From NCBI RefSeq assembly GCF_030849025.1, contig NZ_CP118224.1, positions 1,968,001 to 2,032,000 on the forward strand: a DNA stretch of 64,000 nt. The letters are read 5' to 3'. The notes under the pieces were generated by a model that was given only the letters and a program-made list of their open reading frames with translations, did no database searches and was not told the origin of the DNA. Below, in pieces: positions 44,614-61,826 of the stretch (position 1 is the stretch's first letter; every line of letters starts with the position of its first letter). Made by a program: the position numbers and the translations under genes. The stretch is from Oceanimonas pelagia (lineage in GTDB: Bacteria; Pseudomonadota; Gammaproteobacteria; Enterobacterales; Aeromonadaceae).

Positions 44614-45450
44614 ATGGAACGAAAAATTCTGCTGAGCCACTGCCCCGATGCCCGGGGCCTCATCTCGAAAATCACCAATATCTGCTATAAGCACCAGCTC
44701 AATATCGTGCGCAACGACGAGTTCGTGGATCACGACAACGGTCATTTTTTTATGCGTACCGAACTGGAAGGGCGTTTTAACGACCACACCCTGCTGGCAG
44801 ACTTGAACGAAGCCTTGCCTGAAGGCGGCCAGAACCGGCTGGTGCCGGCGGGCAGCAAGCGGGTGGTGATCCTGGTGACCAAGGAAGCCCATTGCCTGGG
44901 CGATATTCTGATGAAACACTTCAGCGGTGCCATGAACATCGACATCGCCGCCGTGATAGGCAACTACGACACCCTCCGGGGGCTGACCGAAAAATTCGAC
45001 ATTCCCTGGCATACCGTGTCTCACGACGGGCTGAACCGGCCCGAGCACGAGCAGCTGCTGGCGGAGGTGATCGACCGTTATCAGCCCGATTATGTGGTGC
45101 TGGCCAAGTACATGCGCATTCTCAGCCCGGCCTTTGTGGCCCGCTATGAAAAGCGCATCATCAACATTCACCACTCCTTTCTGCCCGCCTTTATCGGCGC
45201 CAGTCCCTATCGCCAGGCCTATGAACGGGGCGTGAAGATGATTGGCGCCACCGCCCACTTCGTGACCGACGATCTGGACGAAGGCCCCATTATCGAGCAG
45301 GACGTCACCCACGTGAACCATGCCTTTTCCGCCGCCGACATGGCCAAGGCCGGCCGGGACGTGGAAAAATCGGTGCTGAGCCGGGCGCTCAACCTGGTGC
45401 TGGAAGAAAAGGTGTTTGTGTACGGCAACCGCACCGTGGTGTTCAAGTGA
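44614..45450 (+). CDS. purU: Formyltetrahydrofolate deformylase PurU
   Basis: A 278-residue enzyme that hydrolyses 10-formyl-THF to formate and THF, balancing one-carbon pools and feeding PurT. The N-terminal ACT domain (1-80) begins RKILLSHCPDARGLISKITN. The C-terminal formyltransferase domain carries the catalytic N184-I-H-H187 in INIHHSFLPAFIGASPY and the Asp in TDDLDEGPIIEQD. Length is close to the E. coli enzyme (280). Confidence 0.95.
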   Translation: MERKILLSHCPDARGLISKITNICYKHQLNIVRNDEFVDHDNGHFFMRTELEGRFNDHTLLADLNEALPEGGQNRLVPAGSKRVVILVTKEAHCLGDILMKHFSGAMNIDIAAVIGNYDTLRGLTEKFDIPWHTVSHDGLNRPEHEQLLAEVIDRYQPDYVVLAKYMRILSPAFVARYEKRIINIHHSFLPAFIGASPYRQAYERGVKMIGATAHFVTDDLDEGPIIEQDVTHVNHAFSAADMAKAGRDVEKSVLSRALNLVLEEKVFVYGNRTVVFK

Positions 45451-45469
45451 GATGTAAGACGTGAAACGT

Positions 45470-45500
45470 GTTATTCAGGCTCTGGCGGAGCCTGAATAAC
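45470..45500. repeat. Perfect 13-bp inverted repeat after purU
   Basis: GTTATTCAGGCTC (45470-45482) and GAGCCTGAATAAC (45488-45500) form a perfect stem with a five-base loop. No T-run follows, so it is more like a REP-type palindrome than a standard terminator. A second, smaller palindrome (GCACGACGTCAGTCGTGC) follows near 45518, ending in the DUF1244 stop region. Confidence 0.7.
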
Positions 45501-45526
45501 TCACTGCTCCCTCATCCCGCACGACG

Positions 45527-45823
45527 TCAGTCGTGCCTGTGGCTTTGCTCAAAGGCCGCCTTCTGCTCAGGCGTTGCCTCTTTCTGGTACTTTTCCTTCC
45601 ACTCGCCGTAAGGCATGCCGTATACCCGCTCCCGGGCCTGGTCGTAGTTCATCTCCACACCCCGCTCTTCGGCGGCGGCCAGATACCACTTGCTCAGGCA
45701 ATTGCGGCAAAAGCCGGCCAGGTTCATCAGATCGATGTTCTGCACGTCCTTGCGCTTGTCGAGATGCGCCAGCAGGGTGCGAAAGGCGGCGGCTTCCAGC
45801 TCGGTTTGGGTTTGCTTGTCCAT
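45527..45823 (-). CDS. DUF1244 domain-containing protein
   Basis: A 98-residue protein that starts MDKQTQTELEAAAFRTLLAH and contains the family core QNIDLMNLAGFCRNCLSKWYLAAAEERG, with the conserved C-x-x-C (CRNC). The tail MPYGEWKEKYQKEAT is also typical. Start 45823 is chosen because GGAG sits six bases upstream; the ATG at 45835 overlaps that site. The family is small and helical with no known function. It is divergent from yfbR. Confidence 0.88.
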   Translation of the reverse strand: MDKQTQTELEAAAFRTLLAHLDKRKDVQNIDLMNLAGFCRNCLSKWYLAAAEERGVEMNYDQARERVYGMPYGEWKEKYQKEATPEQKAAFEQSHRHD

Positions 45824-45891
45824 CTTGTTCTCCATTGGCAGTTGTGGTGCCATTATAACGGCAAGCCCCGCAAACCTCATGAGGCAACAGC

Positions 45892-46485
45892 ATGAACCGC
45901 AGTCACTTTTTTGCCCAGATGGCCCGCATGAAGCTGATCCAGCGCTGGCCGCTGATGCGCAACACGGATCCCGAGAACGTCGCCGAGCACAGCCTGCAGG
46001 TGGCCATGGTGGCCCACGCCCTGGCGGTGATTAAAAACACCCTGTTTGGCGGCCGGCTGGATCCGGGCACCGCCGCCCTGCGCGCCCTGTATCACGATGC
46101 CAGCGAGGTGCTCACCGGTGATCTGCCCACTCCGGTGAAATACTTTAATCAGGAGATGGCCACCACCTACAAGGCCATTGAGCAAAACGCCGAGCAAAGC
46201 CTGCTGGCCATGCTGCCCGCCGAGCTGCAATCCGCCTTTGAGCCCCTGTTGTGCGGCCATGTGCAGGATGACTACAGCCATCTGGTGAAGTCCGCCGACA
46301 TTCTATGCGCCTATCTCAAGTGCGAGGAAGAGCTGTCGGCGGGCAACCGGGAATTCGCCAAGGCCCGGGAACGGCTCACCACCATGCTGGACGCGCGCAT
46401 GAACGACGAAGTTCGGTATTTTATCGAGGTGTTCGTGCCCAGTTTTTCCCTGTCGCTGGATGAAATCTCCACCCCGGGGTTTTGA
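45892..46485 (+). CDS. yfbR: 5'-deoxynucleotidase YfbR
   Basis: A 197-residue HD-domain phosphohydrolase. Metal ligands are H33 in [17 protein letters not shown]68-D69 in [21 protein letters not shown] and an Asp in the [15 protein letters not shown] helix. YfbR removes phosphate from deoxynucleoside 5'-monophosphates and takes part in nucleotide salvage. Length matches E. coli YfbR (199). Confidence 0.94.
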
Positions 46486-46493
46486 GTAATGAT

Positions 46494-46550
46494 GTGAGGG
46501 GTTGGGAGTGAGGTCTCCTCACTCCTCACTCCTCACCCCTCTCTCCTCAC
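46494..46550. repeat. CTCCTCACT-rich palindromic intergenic repeat
   Basis: A 9-bp perfect stem, GGAGTGAGG (46505-46513) with CCTCACTCC (46517-46525), is followed by further CCTCACTC-like direct repeats up to 46550. It separates yfbR from the end of the photolyase operon and may serve as its terminator, although no T-run is present. Confidence 0.6.
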
Positions 46551-47071
46551 ACGTCAGATTTACGTTCAATCCACAGGGTGACTTCCCCGACCTTGAAACC
46601 CCACTTGGTCATTTCGGCGCGGTTGATCAGGCGGTTTTCGTCCAGCAGGTACATCCAGTCGTTAAAGTCGATGTCCCATACTTTTCCGTCCACCGGCACC
46701 GCCAGGGTATAGCGCCAGTTCAGGGCATAACCCTGGGTCTGGCCCTCGGCGGGGGTGACCACGTCACCGGCGGTGCCGGTGTAGCGGCCATTTGGGTGTT
46801 TTTCCAGATACCAGACCCGGCGCTGCCACTCGCCGTCATCATAATAAAAGTCTTCTTCCAGCACGCCCTGGTTGCCTTCCCAGTTGGCCACCATGTCCAC
46901 TCTGAAGCGACGTAATACCCGGCCGGATCTGTCCTGCACCATGCCAAAGGCCACCAGCTCGCCGTTGAAAAACTCATCCAGCGCCAGCGCCGGGGTGGTG
47001 TCTTTATAGTCTGCGATCTGACTGCTGCAGGATGTGAGCAACAGCGCCAGTGCCGCCAGCAATACCTTCAT
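46547..47071 (-). CDS. DUF3833 domain-containing lipoprotein
   Basis: A 174-residue lipoprotein with lipobox LLTSC (Cys15). The body matches DUF3833: LDEFFNGELVAFGMVQDRSGRVLRRFRVDM, WQRRVWYLEKHPNGRYTGTAGDVV and a WDIDFNDWMYLLDENRLINRAEMTKWG block reminiscent of lipocalin-like barrels. It is the last gene of the 11-gene cluster, one base after the chalcone-isomerase-like gene. Function is unknown; a lipid-handling envelope role is inferred from neighbours. Confidence 0.85.
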   Translation of the reverse strand: MKVLLAALALLLTSCSSQIADYKDTTPALALDEFFNGELVAFGMVQDRSGRVLRRFRVDMVANWEGNQGVLEEDFYYDDGEWQRRVWYLEKHPNGRYTGTAGDVVTPAEGQTQGYALNWRYTLAVPVDGKVWDIDFNDWMYLLDENRLINRAEMTKWGFKVGEVTLWIERKSDV

Positions 47072-47072
47072 G

Positions 47073-47555
47073 TCAGCCTCCTTTAAGTTGCCGGGTCAAA
47101 GCGGGATCCCGGCTGTCGGGTGACAGCCAGATGGCCAGAAAGGCCGGCGCAAATGCCGGATCGTCGATACGCCCCAGCAGCCGCCAGTTAAAGTAAAACG
47201 AGCTGGCACCGTTTTCGTCCACCCTGAGCACCAGCTCGTCATTGGTGCGCACCGAGGGCCAGAGCTGTGCCAGCCGCTCGGGCCATTCCGGCTTCCAGTT
47301 CACCCCCAGGCGCTGCCACTCCTCTATGGTGGCGGCCAGCAAATCCTCCTTGTCGATATTGCGGGCATAGCGCAGCGACAATGCCTGAGGATATTGCCCC
47401 GGCTGATAACGGCCGTTTTCGCTGTAAAAACGGGCCTGATACAGATCCCAGAACAGCCAGCTCATTTTGCCCTGGCCCACCAGCGCCAGATCGGCCACCG
47501 GGCTGGCCGACGCCGATGACACCACCAGCAATAACAGTAAACAGAGCCTTTTCAT
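47073..47555 (-). CDS. Chalcone isomerase-like periplasmic protein
   Basis: A 160-residue protein with a signal peptide (cut near SASA, about residue 18). The core GKMSWLFWDLYQARFYSENGRY and SLRYARNIDKEDLLAATIEEWQRLG is typical of the bacterial chalcone-isomerase-like family. Related folds bind fatty acids rather than flavonoids. Bacterial members of this operon type have no proven reaction. The start overlaps the DUF2878 stop by 4 bases. Confidence 0.85.
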   Translation of the reverse strand: MKRLCLLLLLVVSSASASPVADLALVGQGKMSWLFWDLYQARFYSENGRYQPGQYPQALSLRYARNIDKEDLLAATIEEWQRLGVNWKPEWPERLAQLWPSVRTNDELVLRVDENGASSFYFNWRLLGRIDDPAFAPAFLAIWLSPDSRDPALTRQLKGG

Positions 47556-48040
47556 GGTTCACTCCTTCGCAGTCGTTGGTCCAGTACCACCAGCAGCGGC
47601 AGCAACCCAGACCAGATCAGCGCCAGCACCAGCGCCGAAGGCCAGAACCCCAGCGGCAGTGCCACCGCCTGCAGTTTCCAGCCGGCCAGATATGACGATG
47701 CTCCCGCCACCGCGCCGGTGAGCGCCAGCCAGGGCCGGGAGAAACGCCGCAACCATACCAGGCTGTGCCCCAGGGTCAGCACAAAGCCCACCCACAACAG
47801 CCCCAGCCACAGCGGCCAGTGGCTGAACGCGAACACCCCGCTCAGGGTCAGCAGGGCATCTGTTGCCATGCCCAGTACCGCCAGCCATAACACCCGCACA
47901 TCCGCCCGGCGGCTGGGGGTAAAGGCAAAATGCACCCCCAGCAGGGCGGCGGTGAGCCAGGCCCAGGTGTTTTGCCCGGCCACCGCCAGCAGCCAGAAAC
48001 CTTCAAAGGCTACCAGCTGGGTCCATTGCCATTTCGACAT
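47552..48040 (-). CDS. DUF2878 domain-containing membrane protein
   Basis: A 162-residue protein with about five hydrophobic segments (AWLTAALLGVHFAF, FSHWPLWLGLLWVGFVLTLGHSL, LPLGFWPSALVLALIWSGLLPLLVVL). It matches DUF2878, an uncharacterised integral inner-membrane family found with cyclopropane-synthase-like methyltransferases. Its start overlaps the end of that methyltransferase gene by 31 bases, indicating tight coupling. No catalytic residues can be proposed. Confidence 0.85.
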   Translation of the reverse strand: MSKWQWTQLVAFEGFWLLAVAGQNTWAWLTAALLGVHFAFTPSRRADVRVLWLAVLGMATDALLTLSGVFAFSHWPLWLGLLWVGFVLTLGHSLVWLRRFSRPWLALTGAVAGASSYLAGWKLQAVALPLGFWPSALVLALIWSGLLPLLVVLDQRLRRSEP

Positions 48041-49263
48041 ACTCTCGCTCCGGGTTTGGCCGCCTCGAAATGGGCAAGGCCAATGGTGCCTTCAAGAAAG
48101 CCGCCTTCGCAGTAGGCGAAATAAAAGGCCCACAGCCGCTGAAAGTCGGCGCTGTAGCCCAGCCGGGCCAGCTCGGGGCCGGCCCGGCGAAAGCGCTCGG
48201 CCCAGATGCGCAGGGTTTCGGCATAGTGCCAGCCGTAATCGTTAAGGCGCACCAGGGTCATGTCGGTCTGCTCGCGCAGGTGACGGGTCATCTCGCTCAC
48301 CGAGGGCAGACAGCCACCGGGAAAGATGTAACGCTGAATAAAGTCCACACCCTTGCGGTATTGCTGATAACGCTGATCGGCAATGGTAATGGCCTGGATC
48401 AGCAGCCGGCCGTCGGGTTTGAGCAGCCGGTTGAGCACGCGGAAATACGCCGGCAGGTATTCATGACCCACCGCCTCTATCATCTCCACCGAGACCAGCT
48501 TGTCATACTGACCGGTCAGCTCCCGGTAATCCTTCAGCAGCAGGGTCACCCTGTCTTCAAGCCCTTCCCGCTGCACCCGCTGCCTGGCATGGTCGAACTG
48601 TTCCTTTGACAGCGTGGTGGTGGTCACCCGGCAGCCGTAATGGCGCGCCGCATAGCAGGCCAGTCCGCCCCAGCCGGTGCCGATTTCCAGCAGGTGGTCG
48701 TCCGGTTTGAGATCCAGCCGCGAGCAGACAAGCCTGAGCTTGTGCTCCTGGGCCAGCTCCAGCGGTGAGTTGTTTCTTGGGAACACCGCCGAGGAATACT
48801 GCATGTGCGGATCGAGAAACAGCTGGTACATGTCGTTGCCCAGATCGTAATGGGCGGCAATATTGGCCCGGCTGCCCGCCCTGGAGTTGCGGTTGCGCCG
48901 GTGCGTGAGCAGGTGCCAGGGCCGGGTAAGCCAGCCGAGGCGCCGCTCGAGCTTGTCCAGCACCGCCATGTTGCGGGCAAACAGCCGCACCAGACTGGTG
49001 AGATCCGGGCTGTGCCAGCCCCCTTCCACCCAGGACTCGGCGGCCCCTATGCTGCCGCCGCTCATCAGCCGGCGATAAAACCGCGGGTCCCGCACCCGCA
49101 CTTCCGCCTGCAGTGCGGCACCGGCCTCGCCGAAGAAGAAGCGGTCGTCGCCGTCGTATACGGTGAGTCCGGCGTGTTTCAGCCCGGACAACAAGGAAAA
49201 TGCCAGAGTTCGGGCCCAGCGATCCAGGCGGCGGGGGGCGGCTAGGGTCAGGGTTGTGTCCAT
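48010..49263 (-). CDS. Cyclopropane-fatty-acyl-phospholipid synthase-like methyltransferase
   Basis: A 417-residue CFA-synthase family enzyme. The N-terminal lipid-binding part has FFFGEAGAALQAEVRVRDPRFYRRLMSGGSIGAAESW. The catalytic core has NIAAHYDLGNDMYQLFLDPHMQYSSAVF, the SAM motif LLEIGTGWGGLACYAARHYGC, VSVEMIEAVGHEYLPAYF and FIQRYIFPGGCLPS. It transfers methyl or methylene from SAM to unsaturated phospholipid acyl chains. The operon context (photolyase, flavoprotein, MerR) suggests a stress-specific paralogue whose product might not be plain cyclopropane. AAGGA precedes ATG 49263. Confidence 0.9.
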   Translation of the reverse strand: MDTTLTLAAPRRLDRWARTLAFSLLSGLKHAGLTVYDGDDRFFFGEAGAALQAEVRVRDPRFYRRLMSGGSIGAAESWVEGGWHSPDLTSLVRLFARNMAVLDKLERRLGWLTRPWHLLTHRRNRNSRAGSRANIAAHYDLGNDMYQLFLDPHMQYSSAVFPRNNSPLELAQEHKLRLVCSRLDLKPDDHLLEIGTGWGGLACYAARHYGCRVTTTTLSKEQFDHARQRVQREGLEDRVTLLLKDYRELTGQYDKLVSVEMIEAVGHEYLPAYFRVLNRLLKPDGRLLIQAITIADQRYQQYRKGVDFIQRYIFPGGCLPSVSEMTRHLREQTDMTLVRLNDYGWHYAETLRIWAERFRRAGPELARLGYSADFQRLWAFYFAYCEGGFLEGTIGLAHFEAAKPGARVCRNGNGPSW

Positions 49264-49273
49264 CTTGGCGTCC

Positions 49274-49993
49274 TTAAGGGTGTGAATGATAGGGAATGCG
49301 CTTTAACAGCAGTTTCAGCGCCTGCCAGTAAATACCGCGCATCACGGTGAGGGTCATTACCGGCCACTGGCGCAGGGCCGTGCGCAACACATGGGCCTCA
49401 AAGGGCCGGCGGCGCAGGGCCAGGGTGGCGTCAAACAACAGCCCGGGATCGCGGTTTTCAATGTGCACCAGCGCCCGCTTTGCCGGCGGTGAAATGCGCC
49501 AGTGGTAGTTCATGGCCATGCCCATAAAGGGCGACACGTGAAAGGCCTTGGCGGTGGCTTCGGGCTGGCGCAGATCCACCAGGTAGCAATGGCGCTCGTT
49601 CCAGGGGGTGTTGCGGACCTCGGCCAGCAGGTAGCGGGCCTCGCCGTGCTGGTAACAGAAAAACAGGTTCACCGGGCTGAAATAGATGCCGAAACAGCGC
49701 ACCTGGCCGAGCATCAGCACCCGCTCCAGGCCGAGGGACTCTCCACCGAGACGGGCCACTTCTTCCAGCACCGCCTGCTTGAGCGGCGTGCCTTCATCTC
49801 CCAGATAATCCCGGCGACAAAAACTTAAGGGCGCAAAGCGCTCCAGGGCAAAGTCGTGGCTGCTGGCGGCCAGGACCGGCAGCTCGTCCAGATCCAGCGC
49901 CAGCATGTAGAGGCCATAGCTGAAGGCGTGGGCTCTGGGCCGGTAACGGCGGTGGCGCACCACACCGGTGTAAATGGCGCTGTTCAGGCTCAT
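49274..49993 (-). CDS. DUF1365 domain-containing protein
   Basis: A 239-residue protein starting MSLNSAIYTGVVRHRRYRP. DUF1365 hallmarks are HAFSYGLYMLALDLDEL, VRCFGIYFSPVNLFFCYQ, AEVRNTPWNERHCYLVD and KAFHVSPFMGMAMNYHWRISPP. The family always travels with the FAD oxidoreductase and the CFA-like methyltransferase. No reaction is assigned. Its ATG overlaps the FAD gene stop (ATGA), and the methyltransferase gene starts 10 bases later. Confidence 0.88.
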   Translation of the reverse strand: MSLNSAIYTGVVRHRRYRPRAHAFSYGLYMLALDLDELPVLAASSHDFALERFAPLSFCRRDYLGDEGTPLKQAVLEEVARLGGESLGLERVLMLGQVRCFGIYFSPVNLFFCYQHGEARYLLAEVRNTPWNERHCYLVDLRQPEATAKAFHVSPFMGMAMNYHWRISPPAKRALVHIENRDPGLLFDATLALRRRPFEAHVLRTALRQWPVMTLTVMRGIYWQALKLLLKRIPYHSHP

Positions 49994-51237
49994 AAGCCGG
50001 CTCCGAAACGCTCGCACACATCCAGGGCACTGCGCACCCCGTCCTCGTGAAAGCCGTTGTACCAGTAGGCGCCGCAGAAATGGGTGTGACCATGGCCGCA
50101 AATTTCAAGGCGGCGGGCCTGGGCGGCCATGGCGGCCTGGTTATACACCGGGTGCGCATAGGTAAAGCGACGCAATATGCGCGCAGGATCGATGGCCTCG
50201 CTGCGGTTCAGGGTGACGCACAGGGTGTCGTCAGACTCGATGCCCTGCAGAATGTTCATGTTGTAGGTCACCGCCGGCAACGCCTGCTCGCCGCCGCCGA
50301 GGTAATAGTTCCAGCTGGCCCAGGCCCGCCGCTCGCTGGGCAGCAGGCGCGTGTCGGTATGCAGCACCACCTCGTTGTTGCGATAGGCAAGGTTGCCCAG
50401 CACCGACTGTTCGGCCTCGCTGGCATCCGCCAGCAGCCGTAACGCCTGATCCGAATGGCAGGCCAGGATCACCTCATCAAACTGTTCACGCCCGGCGGCA
50501 GTGACAATCTCGACGCCGCCGTCCAGCCGGCGCACCGACTGCACCGGCGAGTTCAGGCGAATATCCTGAACATGCTTCACCAGCGCCGGAATATAGCTGC
50601 GCGAGCCCCCTTCCACCACATACCACTGGGGCCGGTCCACCAGATTGAGCAAGCCATGATGGTTGAAAAAGCGCAGAAAGAAGACCAGCGGAAAATCCCG
50701 GCTGTCGGCCAAAGACGACGACCAGATGGCCGCCACCATGGGCAGCACATAATGGCCGGCAAAGAAGTCCGAGAAGCCGTGCTCCGCCAGAAACCCGCCC
50801 AGGGTCTCGTCGTTACTCAGGCGGCCTTGCTTCAGCGCCCGCTTGCACAGCAGGTTGAAGCGCACGATCTCCAGCAGAAAACCGTAAAAGCGGCCGTTCA
50901 CCAGGTTTTTGCGCTGGGCAAACAGGGTATTGAGGGTATGGCCATTGTATTCCAGTCCGGTGGCGGCCTGCTGCACACTGAAGCTCATTTCCGTGGGCCG
51001 GGCCGTCAGTCCGATCCTGGCCAGCAGCCGCCGAAAACGCGGGTAGGTGCGGTCGTTGAACACGATAAAGCCGGTGTCCACCGCATGAGTACGGCCGTTC
51101 AGGGTCACGTCCACGGTGGCGGTGTGGCCGCCGAGGTAGTCATTGGCTTCAAACAAGGTAACCTCATGCTCCCGGCTCAGCAGCCAGGCCGAGGTCAGGC
51201 CGGCAATGCCGCTGCCAATCACCGCTATCTTGCTCAT
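49990..51237 (-). CDS. FAD-dependent oxidoreductase (amine oxidase/desaturase-like)
   Basis: A 415-residue flavoprotein. The dinucleotide motif G8-S-G-I-A-G13 at the N-terminus (MSKIAVIGSGIAGLTSAWLL) and FEANDYLGGHTATVDV bind FAD. The middle has HYVLPMVAAIWSSSLADSRDFPLVFFLRFF and the C-terminus THFCGAYWYNGFHEDGVRSALDVCE. This is the branch that neighbours CFA-like methyltransferases; it resembles phytoene desaturase/amine oxidases and may oxidise acyl chains. ATG 51237 overlaps the SDR stop by 4 bases. Confidence 0.88.
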   Translation of the reverse strand: MSKIAVIGSGIAGLTSAWLLSREHEVTLFEANDYLGGHTATVDVTLNGRTHAVDTGFIVFNDRTYPRFRRLLARIGLTARPTEMSFSVQQAATGLEYNGHTLNTLFAQRKNLVNGRFYGFLLEIVRFNLLCKRALKQGRLSNDETLGGFLAEHGFSDFFAGHYVLPMVAAIWSSSLADSRDFPLVFFLRFFNHHGLLNLVDRPQWYVVEGGSRSYIPALVKHVQDIRLNSPVQSVRRLDGGVEIVTAAGREQFDEVILACHSDQALRLLADASEAEQSVLGNLAYRNNEVVLHTDTRLLPSERRAWASWNYYLGGGEQALPAVTYNMNILQGIESDDTLCVTLNRSEAIDPARILRRFTYAHPVYNQAAMAAQARRLEICGHGHTHFCGAYWYNGFHEDGVRSALDVCERFGAGL

Positions 51238-51962
51238 GCCTGCTCCTTTTTCATACGGCGGGCCAGACTCAGCCACAGCCCCTGGGGCAGCCAGGACAGC
51301 AGACTCAGGGTGGCGATAAAGCCGGCGGGAAAGGTCACTTCGCGTTTGCCTTTGGCCAACCCTGAGCGAATGGCGCGGCTGGCCTGCGCCGGGCTGACCC
51401 GGCCGGGCATGGGAAAGTCGTTTTTTTGCGTGAGCGGGGTGTCCACAAAACCGGGGCGGATCAGGCTCACCGCCACCTGGTCCGGCTTCAGATCCACCGC
51501 CAGGGTGCGGGCCAGGTAATCCACTCCGGCCTTTGAAGCACCATAGGCCTCGGCGCGGGTCAGGGGCACAAAGGTCACCGACGAGCTCACCAGCGCCAGC
51601 CGGCCACCGGTTTTAATGCGCGGCAGCACCGCCGCCACGCAATTGGCGGTGCCGATCAGGTTGGCCTGCACCACCCGCTCGAACAGGGCGGCGTCAAAGG
51701 CGTGGGCATCGTCCACGTATTCACAGGTGCCGGCATTGAGAATGGCCAGATCCACCGGCGCCACGGCGTTCAAGGCGTCAGTGGCAGCGGTGCGGTCGTT
51801 GATATCAAACACGGCATATTCCACCCGCTCGCCACTCATCGCCTGCTTCAGCTTGTGGTGATGTCGGCCGCAGGCCACCACGGTCCAGCCATCCGCCACA
51901 TAATCCCGCGCCAGTTGCAGGCCAATGCCGGAGCTGGCGCCGGTGATTAAAACCCGTTTCAT
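51234..51962 (-). CDS. SDR family NAD(P)-dependent oxidoreductase
   Basis: A 242-residue classical short-chain dehydrogenase. The cofactor motif is T7-G-A-S-S-G-I-G14, NAG is in LAILNAGTC, the catalytic Ser is in LVSSSVTFVP and the Y-x-x-x-K pair is YGASK. The C-terminus is slightly hydrophobic (FIATLSLLSWLPQGLWLSL), suggesting membrane contact and a lipophilic substrate. It is embedded in the photolyase operon with 4-base overlaps on both sides. Confidence 0.9.
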   Translation of the reverse strand: MKRVLITGASSGIGLQLARDYVADGWTVVACGRHHHKLKQAMSGERVEYAVFDINDRTAATDALNAVAPVDLAILNAGTCEYVDDAHAFDAALFERVVQANLIGTANCVAAVLPRIKTGGRLALVSSSVTFVPLTRAEAYGASKAGVDYLARTLAVDLKPDQVAVSLIRPGFVDTPLTQKNDFPMPGRVSPAQASRAIRSGLAKGKREVTFPAGFIATLSLLSWLPQGLWLSLARRMKKEQA

Positions 51963-52381
51963 GAATTCAGCCTCCGTTTCAGGGCGCGAATGCAGCTGCC
52001 CAGCAGCGGCAACCGCTCGTAGAGCATGGTGCCGAGATCAAAGAAGTCCCTGTGGTAAAACACCCTGTCGGCAAAACACAGGTGACTGACTCCGGGCACG
52101 CTCACCGGCCGGCCATGGTTAAGGCTGGGGTGAATAAAGTGCATTTCCCAGCGCACGTAGGCCTCGCCGTCCTGCTCCATCACCTGAATAATGTCAAAGC
52201 GACATTGCTTGACCCGCGCGAACAGCCCCTCGAAATAGGCCACCAGGGCGTCGATGCCGCGAATGTCGTGGGCCGGATCGGCAAACAGCACATCCTGGGA
52301 ATACACCCGGCGCAGGCCATCCAGCTGTGCAGGCGACAGGCTCTGATACAACCGGCAAAAGGCGTCAAGGGCCGGGCTCAT
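51959..52381 (-). CDS. Nuclear transport factor 2 (NTF2)-like protein
   Basis: A 140-residue SnoaL/NTF2-fold protein: an early [50 protein letters not shown] helix-cone start, then [25 protein letters not shown]2-like proteins bind small hydrophobic ligands or act as isomerases/dehydratases. No catalytic dyad can be assigned with certainty. It sits between the photolyase and SDR genes with 4-base overlaps. Confidence 0.85.
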
Positions 52382-53787
52382 ACCGCCTCCTCATCCTTCA
52401 GGGCATCGAACATGGCAATGGCATGCAGCCGGGCCCTGGCGTGATCGACGATGGGCGGCGCATACTCCCCTGCCCGTCCGCGCTGGCGCAGCCACTCGTG
52501 GGGGGCATGAATGTGTCTGGCCGGTACGCTTTCCAGCTCGGGTACCCAGCGGCGAATAAAGTCGCCGTCGGGGTCAAAGCGCTCGCTCTGGGTCACCGGG
52601 TTGAACACGCGAAAATAGGGCGCGGCATCGGCGCCGGTGCCCGCCGCCCACTGCCAGCCACCGTTGTTGGCGGCCAGCTCACCGTCGATCAGGTTGGTCA
52701 TAAACCAGGCCTCGCCCCGGCGCCAGTCGAGATGCAGATCCTTGGTGAGAAAGCTGGCCACTATCATGCGCAGCCGGTTGTGCATCCAGCCGGTTTCGCG
52801 CAGGCAACGCATGGCCGCATCCACTATGGGGTAGCCGGTCTGCCCTTGGCACCAGGCGGAAAAAGCGTCGTCGTCGTTGCTCCATTGCAGCGCCTCGGTT
52901 TCTTCCTTGAAGGCCCGGCTCATGGAAAGCCGGGGAAAGGCCACCAGCAGGTGACGGTAAAACTCCCGCCAGATAAGCTCGTTGAGCCAGGTAAAGCCGC
53001 GCTCGCCCCGGCCAAAAGGCAGGCTGCCGAGCTCCTGCTCAAGCGCCGCCAGGCACTGGTTGGGAGACAGCACCCCCAGCGCCAGCCAGGGCGACAAGCG
53101 GCTGGTGCCCTCCGCCGCAGGAAAATCCCGCTGCTCGCCGTAATCGAGCAGCCGTTCGGCGCAAAACCGCGCCAGCGCCTGCTGTGCCGCCTGCTCGCCG
53201 GCGGGCCAGGCGCCGCTGTCCTTTTTATCGCCCCTGAGCGTGACGGCACCGGGGTGACACGGTTTGCCAACGGCCGCGGGCACGGGCAACAAGCGGTAGC
53301 CCTGGCTCCGAAGGGCGCTCAGCCAGGCTTTGGAGAAGGGCGTAAACACCTTGTACATGTCCCCGCCCTGGGTGGTAATGCTGCCGTGGTTCATCACGCA
53401 GTCGCCGTTGTATACCCGGCAGGGAATGGCCAGCCGCTGCTGCACCGCCTTATCGCGGCGGCGCTCGTTGACGCCGATCTCCCGGTTGGCATAGAGGGCA
53501 TCAATCCCGTGCTGCGCCACCCAGTCGGCGAGCAGCTCGGGCACGTCGTCAAAACGCTCGCATTCGAGCACGGTCAGGGGCACGCCCAGCTTCGCCAGCC
53601 GTTCCGCCAGGGCCTGCAGATTGCGGTTCAGAAAGTCCCGCTGCATGGGGCTGTGACCATGCTCCCGCCACTGGCCGGGGCAGTCGATGTACACCGCCAG
53701 CACCTGCTCGCCTTCATTACCGGCGGCATGCAGCGCCGGGTTGTCGGCCACCCGCAAATCGTTTCTAAACCACACCAAATGTCGCAT
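52378..53787 (-). CDS. phrB: Deoxyribodipyrimidine photolyase PhrB
   Basis: A 469-residue CPD photolyase that uses blue light to split cyclobutane pyrimidine dimers. The N-terminal antenna domain begins [20 protein letters not shown]. The FAD-binding helical domain carries [55 protein letters not shown] and [35 protein letters not shown]. Length matches E. coli PhrB (472). Its start overlaps the MerR gene by 23 bases. Confidence 0.96.
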
Positions 53788-54604
53788 CGTGCTTCCTCGC
53801 GAGTTCGCTCACGGTATTTTCATGGGGGCGAGTGAGCCAGCCCTGCTCGGCATACACCCGCCCCAGCTCTCCGATAAAAAAGCTGTGCTCGGGCCAGCAC
53901 TGGACCCGTTCGGCAAACCAGCTCTGAGGCAGGCCGCCCCCCAGCACCACCACCAGGGCATCACACTTCAGCCGCTCCACCGCCAGCGGCAGTTGCAGCG
54001 GCTCCAGCAGCCCCAACTCCAGGCTGCGGCATTCCAGCCCCTGTAGTTCAAAGCAGGTCAGCAGGCTGCTCAGCCCGTGGCCCTGCCCCACCCGGGCCAC
54101 GGCAATGCGCGGGCCGGTTTTGATGGTCAGCAACTGGGTAAAGACCCGGGCCAGCAGGGCGGTGGCGCTTTGCTCGATTAGCTGACTGTCGGGCCGTTCC
54201 AGCCGGGCCAGCGCGGCCAGCCAGGGCTCAATCACATGACGCAACAGCAGCTCCGCCGGATACAGGCTGGCCAGCTCAACCAGCTCCGCTTCCAGCCGGC
54301 CCAGATTGAGATCTCCGGCTGCCGTCAGCAGCCGGAGGCGAGCTTGTTCCCAGTTGGAGCCTTCCTCCACCGGCTGCGGGTTGTTCAGCAGGCCCTTGAC
54401 CTGACCGATGCTCACTCCCTGCTCCAGCCAGTGCAGTATTTGCCGAATGAGGGCGATGTCTTCATCGGAGTAGAGCCGGTGGCCCTTGTCGGTGCGCGCC
54501 GGCTTGAGCAGACCGTAACGGCGCTGCCAGGCGCGCAGGGTGACCGGGTTGATGCCGGTTAAGCGGGATACTTCCCGAATCGGATATTGGGGCTCAGATG
54601 CCAT
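53765..54604 (-). CDS. MerR family regulator with degenerate cobalamin-binding-like domain (LitR/CarH/MlrA group)
   Basis: A 279-residue regulator. The MerR winged helix (residues 8-75) includes [38 protein letters not shown] helix bundle (90-160) and a Rossmann-like part (163-279) follow, as in the B12-dependent light sensors CarH/LitR. Key AdoCbl contacts look altered. The CarH bundle pattern W-x9-E-H aligns with R134 and E144-Q145, so Trp and His are missing. H176 in VGQGHGLSS keeps the lower-axial-ligand position. It may sense another cofactor, or none (as MlrA/BluR do). It lies inside the operon it probably controls. Confidence 0.85.
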
Positions 54605-55547
54605 AACGCAGTCGCAATGCCTCCGGATGCGGATCGAGATAGACCTGCTGACGCAGGTAGTCGTTGGGGTGCTCTTCCAGGTAGTGGCGCAGCAGGGTGA
54701 TGGGCGCCAGCAGCGGCAATATGCCTTCCCGGTACTGGTGAATGGTGCGGGCCAGCTCCTGGCGCTGGCGCGAGGTCAGCTGGCGCTTGAAATAGCCCTG
54801 CAGGTGCTGCAGCACATTGGTATGGCCCTTGCGGCTGGCCCTGTGGCTCAGGGCCTGCATCAGGCCGTGAATATACTGCCCGGCTTTTTGCTGCGGATGC
54901 TCCGACAGATCCGCTACCAGCCGGCCCAGCTCCTGATAACTGTCTCTGTGATGGGCCATCAGCAGATATTTGTAGCGGCTGTGAAAGGCAATCAGGCTCG
55001 ACGGTGTCAGCCCGCGGTGCAGCAGGCACTGCCAGTCGTGCAGGGCGTACACCCGGGTGACGAAGTTTTCCCGCAGCACCGGATCGTTGAGCCGGCCGTC
55101 TTCCTCGCAGGGCAGCAACGGCAGCGCCTGCATGATTTCGGCGGCATAGATGCCCACCCCTTCCTTGGCGTTGCCCTTGCCGCTTTCGTGATAGACCCGC
55201 ACCCGCTCCATGCCGCAACTGGGCGACTTGGCGCACAGCACATAACCGCTCAGGCCTTCAAATTGCGCCGCCATGGTGCGGCCGTAGTCGCGCAGCGCCC
55301 CGGTCACATCCACGCCCCTGGCGGTCTGGGCAATCACCTGCCCCTGTGCGCCAATCAGCCGAATACTGGGCCGGGGTGTGCCCAGGCCAATGGCCATTTC
55401 CGGACAGACGGGAACAAACTCCACGAATTTGGCCAGCTGCTCGGTGCAGAAGTCGGAACGTTTGTGTCCGCCGTCAAAACGCACCTTCTGGCCCATCAGG
55501 CAACCGCTAATACCTACCTTGATGATATGGGGATCAAACTTGTACAT
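54594..55547 (-). CDS. DUF523 and DUF1722 fusion protein (YbgA-related)
   Basis: A 317-residue two-domain protein. The N-terminal DUF523 (about 1-150) has VGISGCLMGQKVRFDGGHKRS, CPEMAIGLGTPRPSIRL and AKSPSCGMERVRVYHES, with conserved cysteines. The C-terminal DUF1722 (about 165-317) has DWQCLLHRGLTPSSLIAFHSRYKYLLMAHHRDSY. The DUF1722 half is E. coli YbgA, which also lies beside phr. Function is unknown; it is conserved with photolyases. First gene of the cluster. ATG 55547 is preferred (GAGGG at good distance) and overlaps the TTGTACAT operator. Confidence 0.88.
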   Translation of the reverse strand: MYKFDPHIIKVGISGCLMGQKVRFDGGHKRSDFCTEQLAKFVEFVPVCPEMAIGLGTPRPSIRLIGAQGQVIAQTARGVDVTGALRDYGRTMAAQFEGLSGYVLCAKSPSCGMERVRVYHESGKGNAKEGVGIYAAEIMQALPLLPCEEDGRLNDPVLRENFVTRVYALHDWQCLLHRGLTPSSLIAFHSRYKYLLMAHHRDSYQELGRLVADLSEHPQQKAGQYIHGLMQALSHRASRKGHTNVLQHLQGYFKRQLTSRQRQELARTIHQYREGILPLLAPITLLRHYLEEHPNDYLRQQVYLDPHPEALRLRYGI

Positions 55548-55616
55548 TGCCAACCCTCTTGTACAACTATGTATTTACCATAGCGCTGGTTGTACAAGAT
55601 GATCAAGGTTGTACAA
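55540..55616 (-). promoter_or_regulatory. Operator array of four TTGTACA sites with promoter for the photolyase operon
   Basis: TTGTACA(A/T) occurs at 55540, 55559, 55590 and 55609. The spacings are 19, 31 and 19 bp, so there are two pairs of equal pitch. Three copies are the perfect palindrome TTGTACAA. They fit the CarH/LitR half-site pattern nnTnnACA. A minus-strand promoter TTGATC (55606-55601) with TATGGT (55582-55577), 18 bp apart, has one operator in its spacer. The downstream pair covers the ribosome site and start codon. Regulation by the MerR protein of the operon is the natural inference. Confidence 0.72.
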
Positions 55617-55692
55617 GAAAATTTCCCAAGGCAGGAGATAAAGGTTGGACGTGAGGCGCGAAGACGCAGGACAGGGTTGGAATGGGTGAACC

Positions 55693-55740
55693 GGAGCTGG
55701 GGCTGGGGCTGGGGCTGGGGCTGGGGCTGGGGCTGGGGCT
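55693..55740. repeat. Hexanucleotide tandem repeat (GGGGCT)7 with one variant unit
   Basis: GGAGCT followed by seven exact GGGGCT units, 48 bp in all. Eight G-tracts on the plus strand could fold as a G-quadruplex. It lies between the photolyase operon start and the YeaC-like gene, outside any coding region. Confidence 0.95.
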
Positions 55741-55776
55741 GAAATATTGCCCGGGATAAACCCGGGCCGGCAAGGT

Positions 55777-56055
55777 TCAGTTCAGCTTGCTGCGTACAAT
55801 TTCTTCTTCGTCACGAAACTGGCGACGCAGCTCGGCCTTGCTTTTCATCACCAGCTCGCCCCCCTTGCCAATGGTCATGTGCTCGGGGTTGTCGTTGTGC
55901 ATGGCCTGCCAGGCCAGTACCGCCTGCATGCTGTTTTCCTTCTGCTCCTGAGTGAGCACGGAGCCGTCGGGCCACTTGCCCAGCTCCACCGCGGTCTTGA
56001 GCCGCTCATATACTTCTTTGGGCATGGCGGCAATGGCTTGCTGAAACGATGACAT
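55777..56055 (-). CDS. YeaC family (DUF1315) protein
   Basis: A 92-residue protein, MSSFQQAIAAMPKEVYERLKTAVELGKWPDG onward, matching the YeaC/DUF1315 family. It is helical and charged, with no catalytic motif. In E. coli yeaC lies close to gapA, and here GAPDH genes also follow. The start has AGGAGG-like sequence upstream (AGGAAGTG). The role is unknown. Confidence 0.88.
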   Translation of the reverse strand: MSSFQQAIAAMPKEVYERLKTAVELGKWPDGSVLTQEQKENSMQAVLAWQAMHNDNPEHMTIGKGGELVMKSKAELRRQFRDEEEIVRSKLN

Positions 56056-56100
56056 GACACTTCCTCCTGTATAGATGGGCTCAATTTACCATTCCCCATG

Positions 56101-56130
56101 AAAAAAGGGGTGGCTTCTGCCACCCCTTTT
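56101..56130 (-). terminator. Rho-independent terminator after the long GAPDH gene
   Basis: On the minus strand AGGGGTGGC pairs with GCCACCCCT around four bases, followed by TTTTT. It lies 25 bases after the stop. Confidence 0.88.
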
Positions 56131-56154
56131 GTCTGCCGGTTTGCAAAAATGCGA

Positions 56155-57591
56155 TCAGCCGCGCGCGGGCAGATCCATCAGCTCGATACCGGCCATCTTC
56201 TGCATCACGCGCACCACCTGGCAGCTGTAACCGAATTCGTTGTCGTACCACACATACAGCACGGCGCGGTCGCCTTCCACAATGGTAGCCAGGGAGTCAA
56301 CGATACCGGCAAAGCGGGAGCCGACCATGTCGGTGGAAACCAGCTCGCTGCTAGTGCTGTAATCGATCTGGTTGTGCAGCGGGGAGTCCAGGGACACCTG
56401 CAGCAGGTAGTCGTTCAGCTCTTCTACCGTGGTGGCTTTTTCCAGGTTCAGGTTGAGCACGGCCATGGACACGTTCGGAGTAGGAACGCGAATGGCGTTG
56501 CCGGTCAGCTTGCCTTTCAGCTCGGGCAGGGCCTTGGCCACGGCGGAGGCGGCGCCGGTGCTGGTGAGCACCATGTTCAGCGCGGCGCTGCGGCCACGGC
56601 GATCGCCCTTGTGGTAGTTGTCGATCAGGTTCTGATCGTTGGTGTAGGAGTGCACGGTTTCAACGTGACCATTCTTCACACCGTAGGCATCGTTCACCGC
56701 CTTCAGCACCGGGGTGATGGCGTTGGTGGTGCAGGAGGCGGCGGACATGATGCGGTCTTCCGGCTGGATCATGTCGTCGTTCACACCGAACACGATGTTC
56801 TTGATGTCACCCTTGCCCGGCGCGGTCAGCAGCACCTTGGCGGCACCCTTGGCCTTGAGGTGCAGGCCCAGGCCGGCTTCGTCGCGCCACTTGCCGGTGT
56901 TGTCGACCACCAGGGCATCGTGAATGCCGTACTGGGTGTAATCGATTTCGTCCGGGCTGTTGGCGTAGATCACCTGAATGTAGGTGCCGTTGGCGATAAT
57001 GGCGTTGTTGTCGGCGTCCACTTCAATGGAGCCGTTAAAAGGACCGTGCACGGAGTCACGACGCAGCAGGCTGGCGCGTTTTTCCAGATCGTCGCTGCTG
57101 CCACGCACTACTATGCCACGCAGGCGCATGCCGTTGTTGCTGCCAGCGCGTTCAATCAGCAGGCGGGCCAGCAGGCGGCCGATGCGGCCAAAGCCGTACA
57201 GCACCACGTCGGTGGGCTTGGCGTCGGTATTGGCGTTCAGGGCCGGGGCCAGCTCGGCTTTCAGGAAGTCGGCCAGGCCGGACTCGTCCTGATGATCTTT
57301 CCAGTAGCGCACCGCCAGTTTGCCCAGGTCGATGCTGGCCGGGGCCAGTTCCATCTCGCTCAGGGCCTTGAGCACAGGGTAGCTCTGGCTGACCGGCAGC
57401 GGCTGGCCTTCGTGACGACGCACCACACGGTGAGCCTTGAGAATGTCAATGGTAGATGCGTTCAGCAGGGGGCGAGCATAGACGCAGGTTTCCACGCCCT
57501 GGTTGCGGTACAGTTTGCCAATCAGGGGCTGCATGGACTCTGCCAGTTCCTGGCTCTGTTGCCAGGCGGACAGGTAACTCTCATGGGTCAT
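56155..57591 (-). CDS. Glyceraldehyde-3-phosphate dehydrogenase, long form with N-terminal extension
   Basis: A 478-residue GAPDH. Residues 1-125 are an extra helical domain (MTHESYLSAWQQSQELAESMQPL onward) not found in classical GapA. The NAD domain begins DVVLYGFGRIGRLLARLL. The catalytic cysteine is C287 in SAASCTTNAITP, with the His in VETVHSYTNDQN. This long type occurs in Vibrio, Shewanella and relatives beside gapA, and might favour gluconeogenesis or NADP. That is inference; the cofactor-selecting residues were not checked against a structure. Confidence 0.92.
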   Translation of the reverse strand: MTHESYLSAWQQSQELAESMQPLIGKLYRNQGVETCVYARPLLNASTIDILKAHRVVRRHEGQPLPVSQSYPVLKALSEMELAPASIDLGKLAVRYWKDHQDESGLADFLKAELAPALNANTDAKPTDVVLYGFGRIGRLLARLLIERAGSNNGMRLRGIVVRGSSDDLEKRASLLRRDSVHGPFNGSIEVDADNNAIIANGTYIQVIYANSPDEIDYTQYGIHDALVVDNTGKWRDEAGLGLHLKAKGAAKVLLTAPGKGDIKNIVFGVNDDMIQPEDRIMSAASCTTNAITPVLKAVNDAYGVKNGHVETVHSYTNDQNLIDNYHKGDRRGRSAALNMVLTSTGAASAVAKALPELKGKLTGNAIRVPTPNVSMAVLNLNLEKATTVEELNDYLLQVSLDSPLHNQIDYSTSSELVSTDMVGSRFAGIVDSLATIVEGDRAVLYVWYDNEFGYSCQVVRVMQKMAGIELMDLPARG

Positions 57592-57735
57592 CGACCGGAT
57601 CCTTTTAATTCACGTAACCGTTATTGGTATGAGCAGCCAAACAAAAAGTTGCTGCTTTTGGGCTTTTCAGGCGCGCCCATTTTAGTGGATAGGGGGTATG
57701 ATTACCAGACCGGAGCCGAGCGCAAAAAGACCGAA

Positions 57736-58542
57736 ATGAGAACCAAACCCCTGTTATTTCTGCTTGCTGGCATACTTTTGTTGGCAGGCTGTGAGCGAGA
57801 TCGCACCCGTGGCCTGTGCGGCCGATTCCCCCAGTTCTGTGCCGATTTGCACGACGACAGCTGGTGCACCCGGGAGCGGGAACGGCTGGTTGAGGCACGC
57901 TATGAGAACGCCGAGCACCCCGGCGATGCCAGCCGCTACCGGCTGATGAGCAGCCTGGAACACTACCGGCTGTGCCTGGATCCGCTGCTCGACATCGAAT
58001 ACACCAAGCGCCATGAGCGCAAAAACATCAAGGTGGAAGCCGTTATCGACATCGGTGAGGAACTGGCCCGGCTGGAAGCCCTCACCGCCGGCTCCGACTA
58101 CCCCTATCTGCAACTGTGGCGCTGGCAGCGCCATGGTGATCGCTCGGCCCGCGACAGCTTTATTGCCCAGGCCTCCCGCCCCGAGATGCAACAGGCCGAG
58201 CTGCAGCAGGCCCTGGCCGGCTTGCTGTTGCACCGGGATCCGGCCGCCGCCGAGCGCGCCCTGCACCGCTCACTGGAGCTGACCCGGGAAGACAGCAAGC
58301 CCGACGCCAGCCTGCTGGCCAGCCTGGTGGATCTTTACATCGGACAAAAACGCTACGAGCAAGCCTGGATCTGGGCCGGAGCCCTGGCCGAGCTGCATGG
58401 TGAGGAGTGGGTCAACTGGCAGCGCATGGACTCCCATGTCAGATTCAGCAACCAGCAAAAAGACGCCATGAAGCAGCAGGTCGAGCATCTGGCACAGCAG
58501 CTGGAACGGGGCCGCTATCGGCGTTATGCTGCCAGCAACTGA
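57736..58542 (+). CDS. DUF2989 domain-containing lipoprotein
   Basis: A 268-residue lipoprotein with lipobox LLAGC (Cys19). The mature part opens with a cysteine-containing CGRFPQFCADLHDDSWCTRERERLVEAR block. It continues as helical hairpins resembling TPR/SEL1 repeats (LQQALAGLLLHRDPAAAERALHRSLEL; LVDLYIGQKRYEQAWIWAGALAELHG). It matches DUF2989, found in Aeromonas, Vibrio and Shewanella. Function is unknown; an envelope scaffold role is plausible from the repeats. Transcription diverges from the long GAPDH gene. Confidence 0.84.
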   Translation: MRTKPLLFLLAGILLLAGCERDRTRGLCGRFPQFCADLHDDSWCTRERERLVEARYENAEHPGDASRYRLMSSLEHYRLCLDPLLDIEYTKRHERKNIKVEAVIDIGEELARLEALTAGSDYPYLQLWRWQRHGDRSARDSFIAQASRPEMQQAELQQALAGLLLHRDPAAAERALHRSLELTREDSKPDASLLASLVDLYIGQKRYEQAWIWAGALAELHGEEWVNWQRMDSHVRFSNQQKDAMKQQVEHLAQQLERGRYRRYAASN

Positions 58543-61136: not shown

Positions 61137-61212
61137 TGGTGGGTCGTGCAGGATTCGAACCTGCGACCAATTGATTAAAAGTCAACTGCTCTACCAACTG
61201 AGCTAACGACCC
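61137..61212 (-). tRNA. tRNA-Lys (UUU), copy 1
   Basis: 76 nt with encoded CCA. Read on the minus strand: GGGTCGTTAGCTCAGTTGG, anticodon loop CTTTTAA with anticodon TTT, T-loop GGTTCGAATCC, acceptor end CGACCCACCA. It is the last (promoter-distal) gene of the array and lies outside the tandem repeat, flanked by a different spacer. Confidence 0.97.
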
Positions 61213-61243
61213 GTATAAACGGAGGCTTATTCGTCGGAATAAG

Positions 61244-61319
61244 TGGTGGACGCTACTGGGATCGAACCAGTGACCCCCTCCTTGTAAGGGAGGTGCTCTC
61301 CCGGCTGAGCTAAGCGTCC
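61244..61319 (-). tRNA. tRNA-Val (UAC), type B, copy 1
   Basis: 76 nt with CCA. It starts GGACGCTTAGCTCAGCCGG, anticodon loop CTTACAA (anticodon TAC), and ends AGCGTCCACCA. Type B differs from type A in the acceptor stem and in CCGGGA versus CTGGGA of the D arm. Confidence 0.96.
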
Positions 61320-61325
61320 GGGAAC

Positions 61326-61401
61326 TGGTGGGTCGTGCAGGATTCGAACCTGCGACCAATTGATTAAAAGTCAACTGCTCTACCAACTGAGCTAACGACC
61401 C
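61326..61401 (-). tRNA. tRNA-Lys (UUU), copy 2
   Basis: Identical in sequence to the other Lys copies: anticodon TTT and CCA encoded. It lies six bases from the type B Val gene on its left; the pair is separated from the next by a short AT-rich spacer. Confidence 0.97.
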
Positions 61402-61426
61402 GAATTGTATTACTTTCCTGCGAAAG

Positions 61427-61502
61427 TGGTGGGTGATACTGGGCTCGAACCAGTGACCCCCTCCTTGTAAGGGAGGTGCTCTCCCAGCTGAGCTAATCAC
61501 CC
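61427..61502 (-). tRNA. tRNA-Val (UAC), type A, copy 1
   Basis: 76 nt with CCA. It starts GGGTGATTAGCTCAGCTGG, anticodon TAC, and ends ATCACCCACCA. The acceptor stem matches the E. coli tRNA-Val(UAC) type. Confidence 0.97.
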
Positions 61503-61534
61503 TGGGAGGTACTTTTTACAAAAAGTACCAAAAC

Positions 61535-61610
61535 TGGTGGACGCTACTGGGATCGAACCAGTGACCCCCTCCTTGTAAGGGAGGTGCTCTCCCGGCTGAG
61601 CTAAGCGTCC
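61535..61610 (-). tRNA. tRNA-Val (UAC), type B, copy 2
   Basis: Same sequence as the type B copy at 61244. The spacer to its left contains GTACTTTTTACAAAAAGTAC, a small palindrome. Confidence 0.96.
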
Positions 61611-61617
61611 GGGAATC

Positions 61618-61693: not shown

Positions 61694-61718
61694 GAATTGT
61701 ATTACTTTCCTGCGAAAG

Positions 61719-61794: not shown

Positions 61795-61826
61795 TGGGAA
61801 GTACTTTTTACAAAAAGCACCAAAAC

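Follow-up and report, generated by a model that had tools for sequence, protein, structure and literature searches.

Genes and regulation of an eleven-gene photolyase and lipid operon with its own MerR-type regulator in Oceanimonas pelagia

The closest described relatives of the operon examined here, eleven minus-strand genes in a 64,000-nucleotide stretch of Oceanimonas pelagia DNA (NZ_CP118224.1, positions 1,968,001 to 2,032,000; "the window", whose coordinates are used throughout), come from Pseudomonas, Shewanella, Vibrio and Aeromonas, and are cited by PubMed Central (PMC) identifier. In Pseudomonas mendocina the corresponding cluster is light-inducible; the repressor PmlR2 footprints on two TGTACA-N12-TGTACA sites, one over the -35 region and the other between the start site and the ATG, and a short LOV (light, oxygen, voltage) protein activated by blue light relieves repression, placing class II LitR under a true photoreceptor (PMC9758184). 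In Shewanella oneidensis MR-1, SO_3386-SO_3374 is a predicted target of RpoE2, with the promoter TGATCCTTGTACAAGAATGGTCCGTAAT (PMC4336711). Vibrio cholerae has a predicted operon of VCA0056 (MerR) and VCA0057 (phr); its blue-light response needs VCA0056 and ChrR together, and a double mutant in chrR and merR no longer responds to blue light (PMC5241685). In Aeromonas salmonicida, AXA69_RS13645-13670 is a predicted operon of adjacent NTF2-like, short-chain dehydrogenase (SDR), flavin adenine dinucleotide (FAD) oxidoreductase, DUF1365, cfa and DUF2878 genes. In RNA-seq, 2 uM riboflavin lowered 18 genes, including these six of the lipid part, ChrR and a LON-domain gene (PMC10012899), which shows that in a relative the lipid genes change in concert with a set of sigmaE type.

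The individual activities have separate literatures. Furan fatty acids are made by UfaM, an S-adenosylmethionine (SAM)-dependent acyl methylase, UfaD, a desaturase with an NAD/FAD-binding domain, and UfaO, a DUF1365 protein that forms the furan ring using O2; in Rhodopseudomonas palustris these are RPA2569, RPA2571 and RPA2570, respectively (PMC7380195). The three Halomonas genes are consecutive, and Halomonas UfaM in Escherichia coli gave the first intermediate (PMC12089945). TudS-DUF1722 fusions are RudS, which removes 4-thiouridine from tRNA and, expressed in E. coli, lessens the growth delay caused by ultraviolet A (PMC11417400). Light induces related clusters in Pseudomonas, and in Shewanella one is a predicted sigmaE target, so neither the operon type nor its response to light is new; the control of the operon appears to be. 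The reading judged likely here is that the eleven genes form one transcript under their own MerR regulator and protect against light through RudS, photolyase, furan fatty acids and a trio of envelope proteins.

The operon and its paired TGTACA boxes

Genes, families, operators with their conservation, and synteny were read from the window and from three samples: 23 genomes of the genus, including the host (a single contig of 3.59 Mb); an order sample of 120 among the 140 DUF1365-bearing genomes of 247 searched (20 were not fetched); and 80 named loci, among the matches listed in one genome scan, including Aeromonas, Shewanella, Pseudoalteromonas, Vibrio, Enterobacter, Klebsiella, Marinomonas, Nitrospira and Planctomycetota. 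In the list of open reading frames (ORFs) of the window, eleven lie on the minus strand, the first starting with the ATG at 55547 and the last ending with the stop at 46547; the gaps between neighbours, in transcription order, are -11, -23, -4, -4, -4, -4, +10, -31, -4 and +1 bases. The overlapping eleven-gene operon of an earlier note on this DNA, whose upper end of 55616 includes the promoter, is thereby borne out, as are all its family names, each backed by a Pfam match (bits in the list).

55591..55615, minus strand: putative operator pair Site 1, TGTACA 55615-55610, N13, TGTACA 55596-55591, enclosing the -35-like TTGATC (sequence, genus alignment)
55577..55606, minus strand: probable core promoter, TTGATC (55606-55601), N18, TATGGT (55582-55577) (sequence, 23 promoters, relatives)
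55541..55565, minus strand: putative operator pair Site 2, TGTACA 55565-55560, N13, TGTACA 55546-55541, the last box overlapping the start codon (ATGTACAAG) (sequence, genus alignment)
54594..55547, minus strand: rudS, TudS(DUF523)-DUF1722, predicted tRNA 4-thiouridine desulfidase (2-thiouracil desulfurase 140, DUF1722 150; structure match, alignment, PMC11417400)
53765..54604, minus strand: merR, class II LitR-like regulator, presumed repressor of its own operon (MerR_1 72; CarH match)
52378..53787, minus strand: phr, DNA photolyase (288 + 153; 458 bits to E. coli photolyase 1DNP, residues 2-464)
51959..52381, minus strand: NTF2/SnoaL-like small protein (SnoaL_2 61; in 117 of 120 order-sample loci)
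51234..51962, minus strand: short-chain dehydrogenase (adh_short 137; in 110 of 120 order-sample loci)
49990..51237, minus strand: ufaD, predicted FAD-dependent desaturase of a methyl-branched acyl chain (Amino_oxidase 80; synteny, PMC7380195)
49274..49993, minus strand: ufaO, DUF1365, predicted furan-ring-forming oxygenase (258; AlphaFold model, predicted local distance difference test 93.7; PMC7380195)
48010..49263, minus strand: ufaM, predicted SAM-dependent acyl methylase of the cyclopropane fatty acid (CFA) synthase family (CMAS 291; Gln290)
47552..48040, minus strand: DUF2878 membrane protein, three hydrophobic spans above the threshold used (121)
47073..47555, minus strand: chalcone-isomerase-like protein, probably periplasmic, with a hydrophobic signal-like start (Chalcone_3 31, cut-off 27)
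46547..47071, minus strand: DUF3833 lipoprotein, lipobox LTSC, predicted calycin beta-barrel (232; alignment, fold comparison)

The order of all eleven genes is kept in 21 of the 23 genus genomes, so the arrangement is not due to chance; synteny is strong across the order as well, and a lack of it in relatives was one of the findings that the earlier note had held would refute its reading. The two exceptions, G010 and G011 (two species), are internal deletions: after phr, merely scraps of the SDR and DUF3833 genes are left in G010, while in G011 the NTF2-like protein breaks off after 48 residues and continues as the chalcone-isomerase-like protein from residue 80 onward. Both retain rudS, merR, phr and the operators, and ufaD-O-M is missing at the locus. 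A simple sigma-70 scan of 45000-58000 gave 2 sites against 2.9 expected, which neither proves nor excludes internal promoters. A perfect 6-base tandem repeat (GCTGGG, 7.7 copies, 55696-55741) lies at one end of the operon and an imperfect 7-base one (CTCCTCA, 5.1 copies, 46515-46550) at the other; some relatives in the genus (four loci) have like short repeats ahead of the operon.

The geometry of the two TGTACA-N13-TGTACA pairs, 25 or 26 bases apart, is fixed in all 23 genus promoters, including one locus with a misplaced automatic start call, where the promoter sequence agrees with the genus pattern. Both Site 2 boxes are exact throughout; those of Site 1 are exact in 18 genomes, and the other five have one box altered at one base. 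Exact paired sites in the host genome were found, among the matches listed, only at the operon promoter, and the two single-mismatch paired sites elsewhere equal the reversed-pattern control. The genus core promoter is TGATC-N17-CTAT where some relatives read TGATC-N17-CGTA, and can also be read as sigma-70 type, TTGATC-N18-TATnnT; the sigmaE-type motif TGATC-N16-19-CGTA was found in none of the 23 genus promoters within 400 bases upstream. As PmlR2 does in its footprint, the operon's own class II LitR-type MerR protein would bind the two pairs bracketing the core promoter and repress the transcript, which light or photo-oxidative stress would turn on.

Regulator exchange and the signal for MerR

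The MerR protein (65 bits to CarH over residues 2-218) joins a MerR helix-turn-helix (HTH) to a CarH-like region lacking B12 ligands and has paired TGTACA boxes at its own promoter, features of class II LitR. In the genus alignment none of the 23 sequences has a residue in the Trp131 column, 22 have His142 replaced and 6 keep His177; we take these columns to be the B12 residues of CarH, and their degeneration sets the protein apart from the adenosylcobalamin-binding class I of CarH/LitR. No B12-binding Pfam domain matched the operon MerR at E 0.01. BLUF (blue light using flavin) domains were found in none of the 23 genus genomes by a search that recovered its E. coli positive control. One DNA-motif search, which can miss degenerate LOVs, found no LOV motif in the host genome, LOV domains in 4 of the 23 genus genomes (all within GGDEF-EAL proteins), and none convincing in 20 further MerR-type genomes.

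The earlier note linked parts of this gene set in other genera to control by either a LitR-type protein or an extracytoplasmic function (ECF) sigma factor with ChrR. The first agrees with the MerR protein and its TGTACA pairs; the second misfits the genus, where the sigmaE motif was found at none of the promoters and ChrR exceeds the TIGR02451 cut-off in 0 of 23 genomes, with weak partial matches in 22. That of the host is a 224-residue cupin-like ORF, around which no sigma-like ORF was seen.

Across the order, the lipid module hardly ever has both MerR and sigmaE/ChrR for neighbours. Within 9 kb, 25 of the 120 order-sample loci have MerR only, 47 ECF/ChrR only, 1 both and 47 neither; for the 80 named loci the figures are 19, 42, 0 and 19. 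Shewanella alone among the named loci has both types, and the named Pseudoalteromonas loci read sigma-ChrR-rudS-phr versus rudS-merR-phr in Aeromonas and Salinivibrio. Within 400 bases upstream (counts that include named plasmid loci), paired TGTACA boxes are present at 42/46 MerR-type, 0/50 ECF-type and 1/51 other loci, and the sigmaE motif at 38/50 ECF-type loci, 15/23 MerR-type loci outside the genus and 21/51 others. Thirteen MerR-type loci carry both elements, and a TGTACA box lies inside the spacer of the S. oneidensis promoter. Outside the genus, ChrR is over the cut-off in 17 of 20 MerR-type genomes; the sigmaE motif is present in 13 of these 17 and in 0 of the 3 without ChrR. We infer that the promoter was once composite and that its sigmaE half went when the genus lost ChrR. 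MerR-type versus ECF-type operons form a natural experiment in regulator replacement, and neither a composite promoter nor a regulator swap was found described in the accessible open-licence PMC literature on these systems.

It is tentatively proposed that, after the loss of sigmaE-ChrR, CGTA decayed to CTAT, leaving a sigma-70-type promoter bracketed by MerR boxes, and that the light or singlet-oxygen signal reaches MerR via its divergent C-terminal domain or an unrecognized partner, with neither short LOV nor BLUF nor B12 involved; if true, the LitR family would gain a new class of sensor. As signal, reactive or singlet oxygen is put first, and an unrecognized photoreceptor or photolyase second. 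Since ChrR, short LOV and BLUF were not found in it, the genus offers an uncluttered setting for asking what lets a class II LitR respond to light or singlet oxygen; the same question arises in V. cholerae.

An equally tentative alternative holds that MerR answers reactive oxygen or nitrogen species or a metabolite, light acting through stress only, with no photoreceptor. The degenerate B12 residues and the lack of any BLUF in 23 genomes and of a detected short LOV in these and the 20 further MerR-type genomes are in line with it, as is the suggestion of the V. cholerae authors that reactive oxygen species act on VCA0056 (PMC5241685); a true photoreceptor controls the Pseudomonas class II LitR, however (PMC9758184), and the LOV search relied on one DNA motif. 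That the photolyase beside merR, or a second photolyase-family protein, is a flavin photoreceptor releasing MerR seems unlikely. In its favour, merR overlaps phr by 23 bases, two species without the lipid genes still have both of these with rudS and the operators, and a second photolyase-family gene is present in the genome; but a review reports that cryptochrome/photolyase proteins take no part in the photo-oxidative response of V. cholerae, for which there is also a triple mutant (PMC5241685).

RudS, photolyase, lipid module and envelope trio

The first gene of the operon encodes a TudS desulfidase domain (structure match 6z92) fused to DUF1722. In an alignment of homologues from the fetched loci (143 sequences, 141 distinct, own copy included), Cys16, Cys48, Cys111, Glu50, Arg59 and Ser108 are identical in 143/143, and position 110 (Ser in the window) holds Ser in 101 sequences and Thr in the other 42. 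When their spacing is matched to that of the PP_0741 residues given in PMC11417400, these supply the cluster cysteines and the catalytic Glu, Arg and Ser which, with the domain fusion, define the predicted RudS. The host genome also encodes ThiI (358 bits, cut-off 264.5), the maker of 4-thiouridine. RudS would strip this near-UV-absorbing base from tRNA, and the photolyase would mend UV dimers in DNA. A second photolyase/cryptochrome-family gene is located elsewhere in the host genome (G000:C1:3137953-3138432); the top structure matches of its product are photolyase 6kii and DASH-type proteins.

DUF523/DUF1722 and DUF1365 had both been listed in the earlier note as lacking a known reaction, which does not hold: the former is RudS, and the latter is UfaO, for which furan formation is published (PMC7380195). 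The DUF1365 gene stands beside that of an FAD/NAD desaturase-like protein, and UfaD-UfaO-UfaM are contiguous in 80/80 named loci, among the matches listed, and in 120/120 order-sample loci. In the latter the module is accompanied by NTF2-like (117), SDR (110), DUF2878 (96), chalcone-isomerase-like (94), phr (80), rudS (78) and DUF3833 (78) genes. As to the co-occurrence of DUF1365, DUF2878 and DUF3833, put forward in the earlier note as a check, DUF2878, DUF3833 and the chalcone-isomerase-like gene are all present in 72 of these 120 DUF1365 loci. UfaM, UfaD and UfaO would respectively methylate, desaturate and oxygenate 18:1 phospholipid acyl chains to furan fatty acids, which react with singlet oxygen. 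Five loci have an extra UfaM-DUF2878 pair upstream of UfaD-UfaO-UfaM, possibly for a second methylation step.

It is improbable that the methylase is an ordinary cyclopropane synthase and the lipid arm a general hardening of the membrane. In favour, the enzyme is the only full-length CMAS match in the host genome, the E. coli Cfa match spans residues 50-396, and the Shewanella and Aeromonas authors name the gene cfa (PMC4336711, PMC10012899). Against this, UfaD and UfaO genes precede the methylase gene in every named locus listed, and the best score to the NCBIfam Cfa equivalog is 282 bits, under the cut-off of 400. Residue 290 is Gln in 8/8 aligned operon enzymes (own plus seven) versus His, presumably a bicarbonate ligand, in the CFA synthases 6bqc and 5z9o. 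This sequence signature suggests a CFA-family methylase distinct from Cfa. The predicted product is a furan fatty acid rather than general membrane remodelling, and the light or photo-oxidative regulon of the earlier note, joining DNA repair to membrane lipids, is amended in this respect; it stands in its conserved gene set, light-inducible in P. mendocina (PMC9758184) and a predicted RpoE2 target in S. oneidensis (PMC4336711). It is very improbable that MerR takes its signal from furan fatty acids or from products of their oxidation, on the model put forward for the turnover of ChrR in Rhodobacter sphaeroides, where sigmaE induction by singlet oxygen needs furan fatty acid genes: G010 and G011, without ufaD-O-M at the locus, still have MerR and the two operator pairs.

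The lipid part is separable, since G010 and G011 lost it and keep rudS, merR, phr and operators. The distance from phr to the NTF2-like gene exceeds 450 bases in 14 of 71 order-sample relatives with both on one strand, and the lipid part can therefore be a separate unit elsewhere. In nine loci of family f6, phr lies more than 3 kb from the lipid genes, and a sigmaE-type motif precedes the NTF2-like gene, so a promoter of the lipid part's own seems likely there. In four loci of Klebsiella, Buttiauxella and Pectobacterium the lipid module lies beside a MerR gene, with rudS at the operon end and no phr detected within the stretch; one of them (L140) is a 550-kb Klebsiella plasmid record.

The last three proteins, DUF2878 (inner membrane), the chalcone-isomerase-like protein (periplasm) and DUF3833, may carry or handle furan lipids in the envelope. 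DUF3833 is predicted to be a calycin-fold lipoprotein, with a lipobox LTSC, a Cys15 invariant in the alignment and a predicted fold of the calycin/nitrobindin-like barrel type. In open-licence PMC texts, as accessible, only the Aeromonas study was found naming two of DUF3833, DUF2878, DUF1365 and chalcone isomerase in combination, without experimental function (PMC10012899). The trio are candidates for missing parts of furan-lipid biology.

Several points weigh against this reading of the operon and its control. The known short-LOV partner was not found in the host genome (one DNA motif); the RudS authors call class II LitR B12-dependent (PMC11417400), contrary to PMC9758184; and the box spacing is N13 in the window versus N12 in the published Pseudomonas sites. 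One genus genome has an exact paired site outside the operon, among the matches listed. Neither regulator is near in 47 of 120 loci, and 4 of the 51 neither-regulator loci in the motif counts have less than 15 bases of upstream sequence; 1 of the 51 has two paired-box operators yet no MerR nearby, which points to a regulator encoded at another place of its genome. The one locus with both regulators has MerR on the opposite strand, one Shewanella locus of the MerR type shows two matches resembling ChrR but no sigma gene, and the strict sigmaE motif is missing in 4 of the 17 MerR-type genomes having ChrR. Shuffles giving 0.6% for the sigmaE motif and 0.07% for the paired boxes preserve base content only, and the hidden Markov models were built from loci of the same survey. 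The predicted Ufa assignment rests on family, gene order and context, and RSP1087-1089 are reported dispensable for furan fatty acid synthesis (PMC7380195). The 19-gene A. salmonicida table names no photolyase, MerR or DUF523 (PMC10012899), and the two halves therefore need not always move together.

Elsewhere in the window (61137-62277, minus strand) lie 12 tRNA genes (7 Val-TAC, 5 Lys-TTT), partly a 292-base unit repeated about 3.5 times with 99% matches; this array is recently amplified.

Comparison with described systems

In this operon three activities that were published apart from one another (tRNA 4-thiouridine erasure, photolyase and furan fatty acid synthesis) come under what is probably one promoter; among the matches listed from the open-licence PMC literature, no paper treats RudS together with furan fatty acids. 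As a TudS-DUF1722 fusion with cluster cysteines and catalytic Glu, Ser and Arg, its first product resembles the RudS family, reported in light-responsive operons (PMC11417400), and in Pseudomonas putida RudS is PP_0741 of the pplR1 cluster, said to share an operon with LitR and PhrB (PMC9758184, PMC11417400). The pmlR1 cluster of P. mendocina is similar in reading LitR, phrB, hypothetical, SDR, FAD oxidoreductase, hypothetical, ufaM, hypothetical (order taken from locus numbers; PMC9758184), and Pseudomonas likewise has two TGTACA pairs, one over the -35 region and the other between the start site and the ATG. MerR has 279 residues in the window versus 318 in PmlR1, and LitR in Pseudomonas has several paralogues as well as short LOV partners, whereas the host genome has one other MerR match, HTH-only.

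The other systems diverge mainly in regulation. The RpoE2/ChrR operon of S. oneidensis likewise holds ybgA, phrB and cfa in a single operon (PMC4336711), but the genus has CTAT for CGTA at equal spacing and no ChrR over the cut-off. R. sphaeroides and R. palustris share the three Ufa enzyme families; R. sphaeroides differs in its five-gene operon RSP1087-1091, with ufaM elsewhere and sigmaE-ChrR control (PMC7380195). In A. salmonicida the authors assign no tested function, and the signal was riboflavin, which lowered expression (PMC10012899). V. cholerae also has MerR next to photolyase, but, unlike the genus of O. pelagia, it has ChrR.

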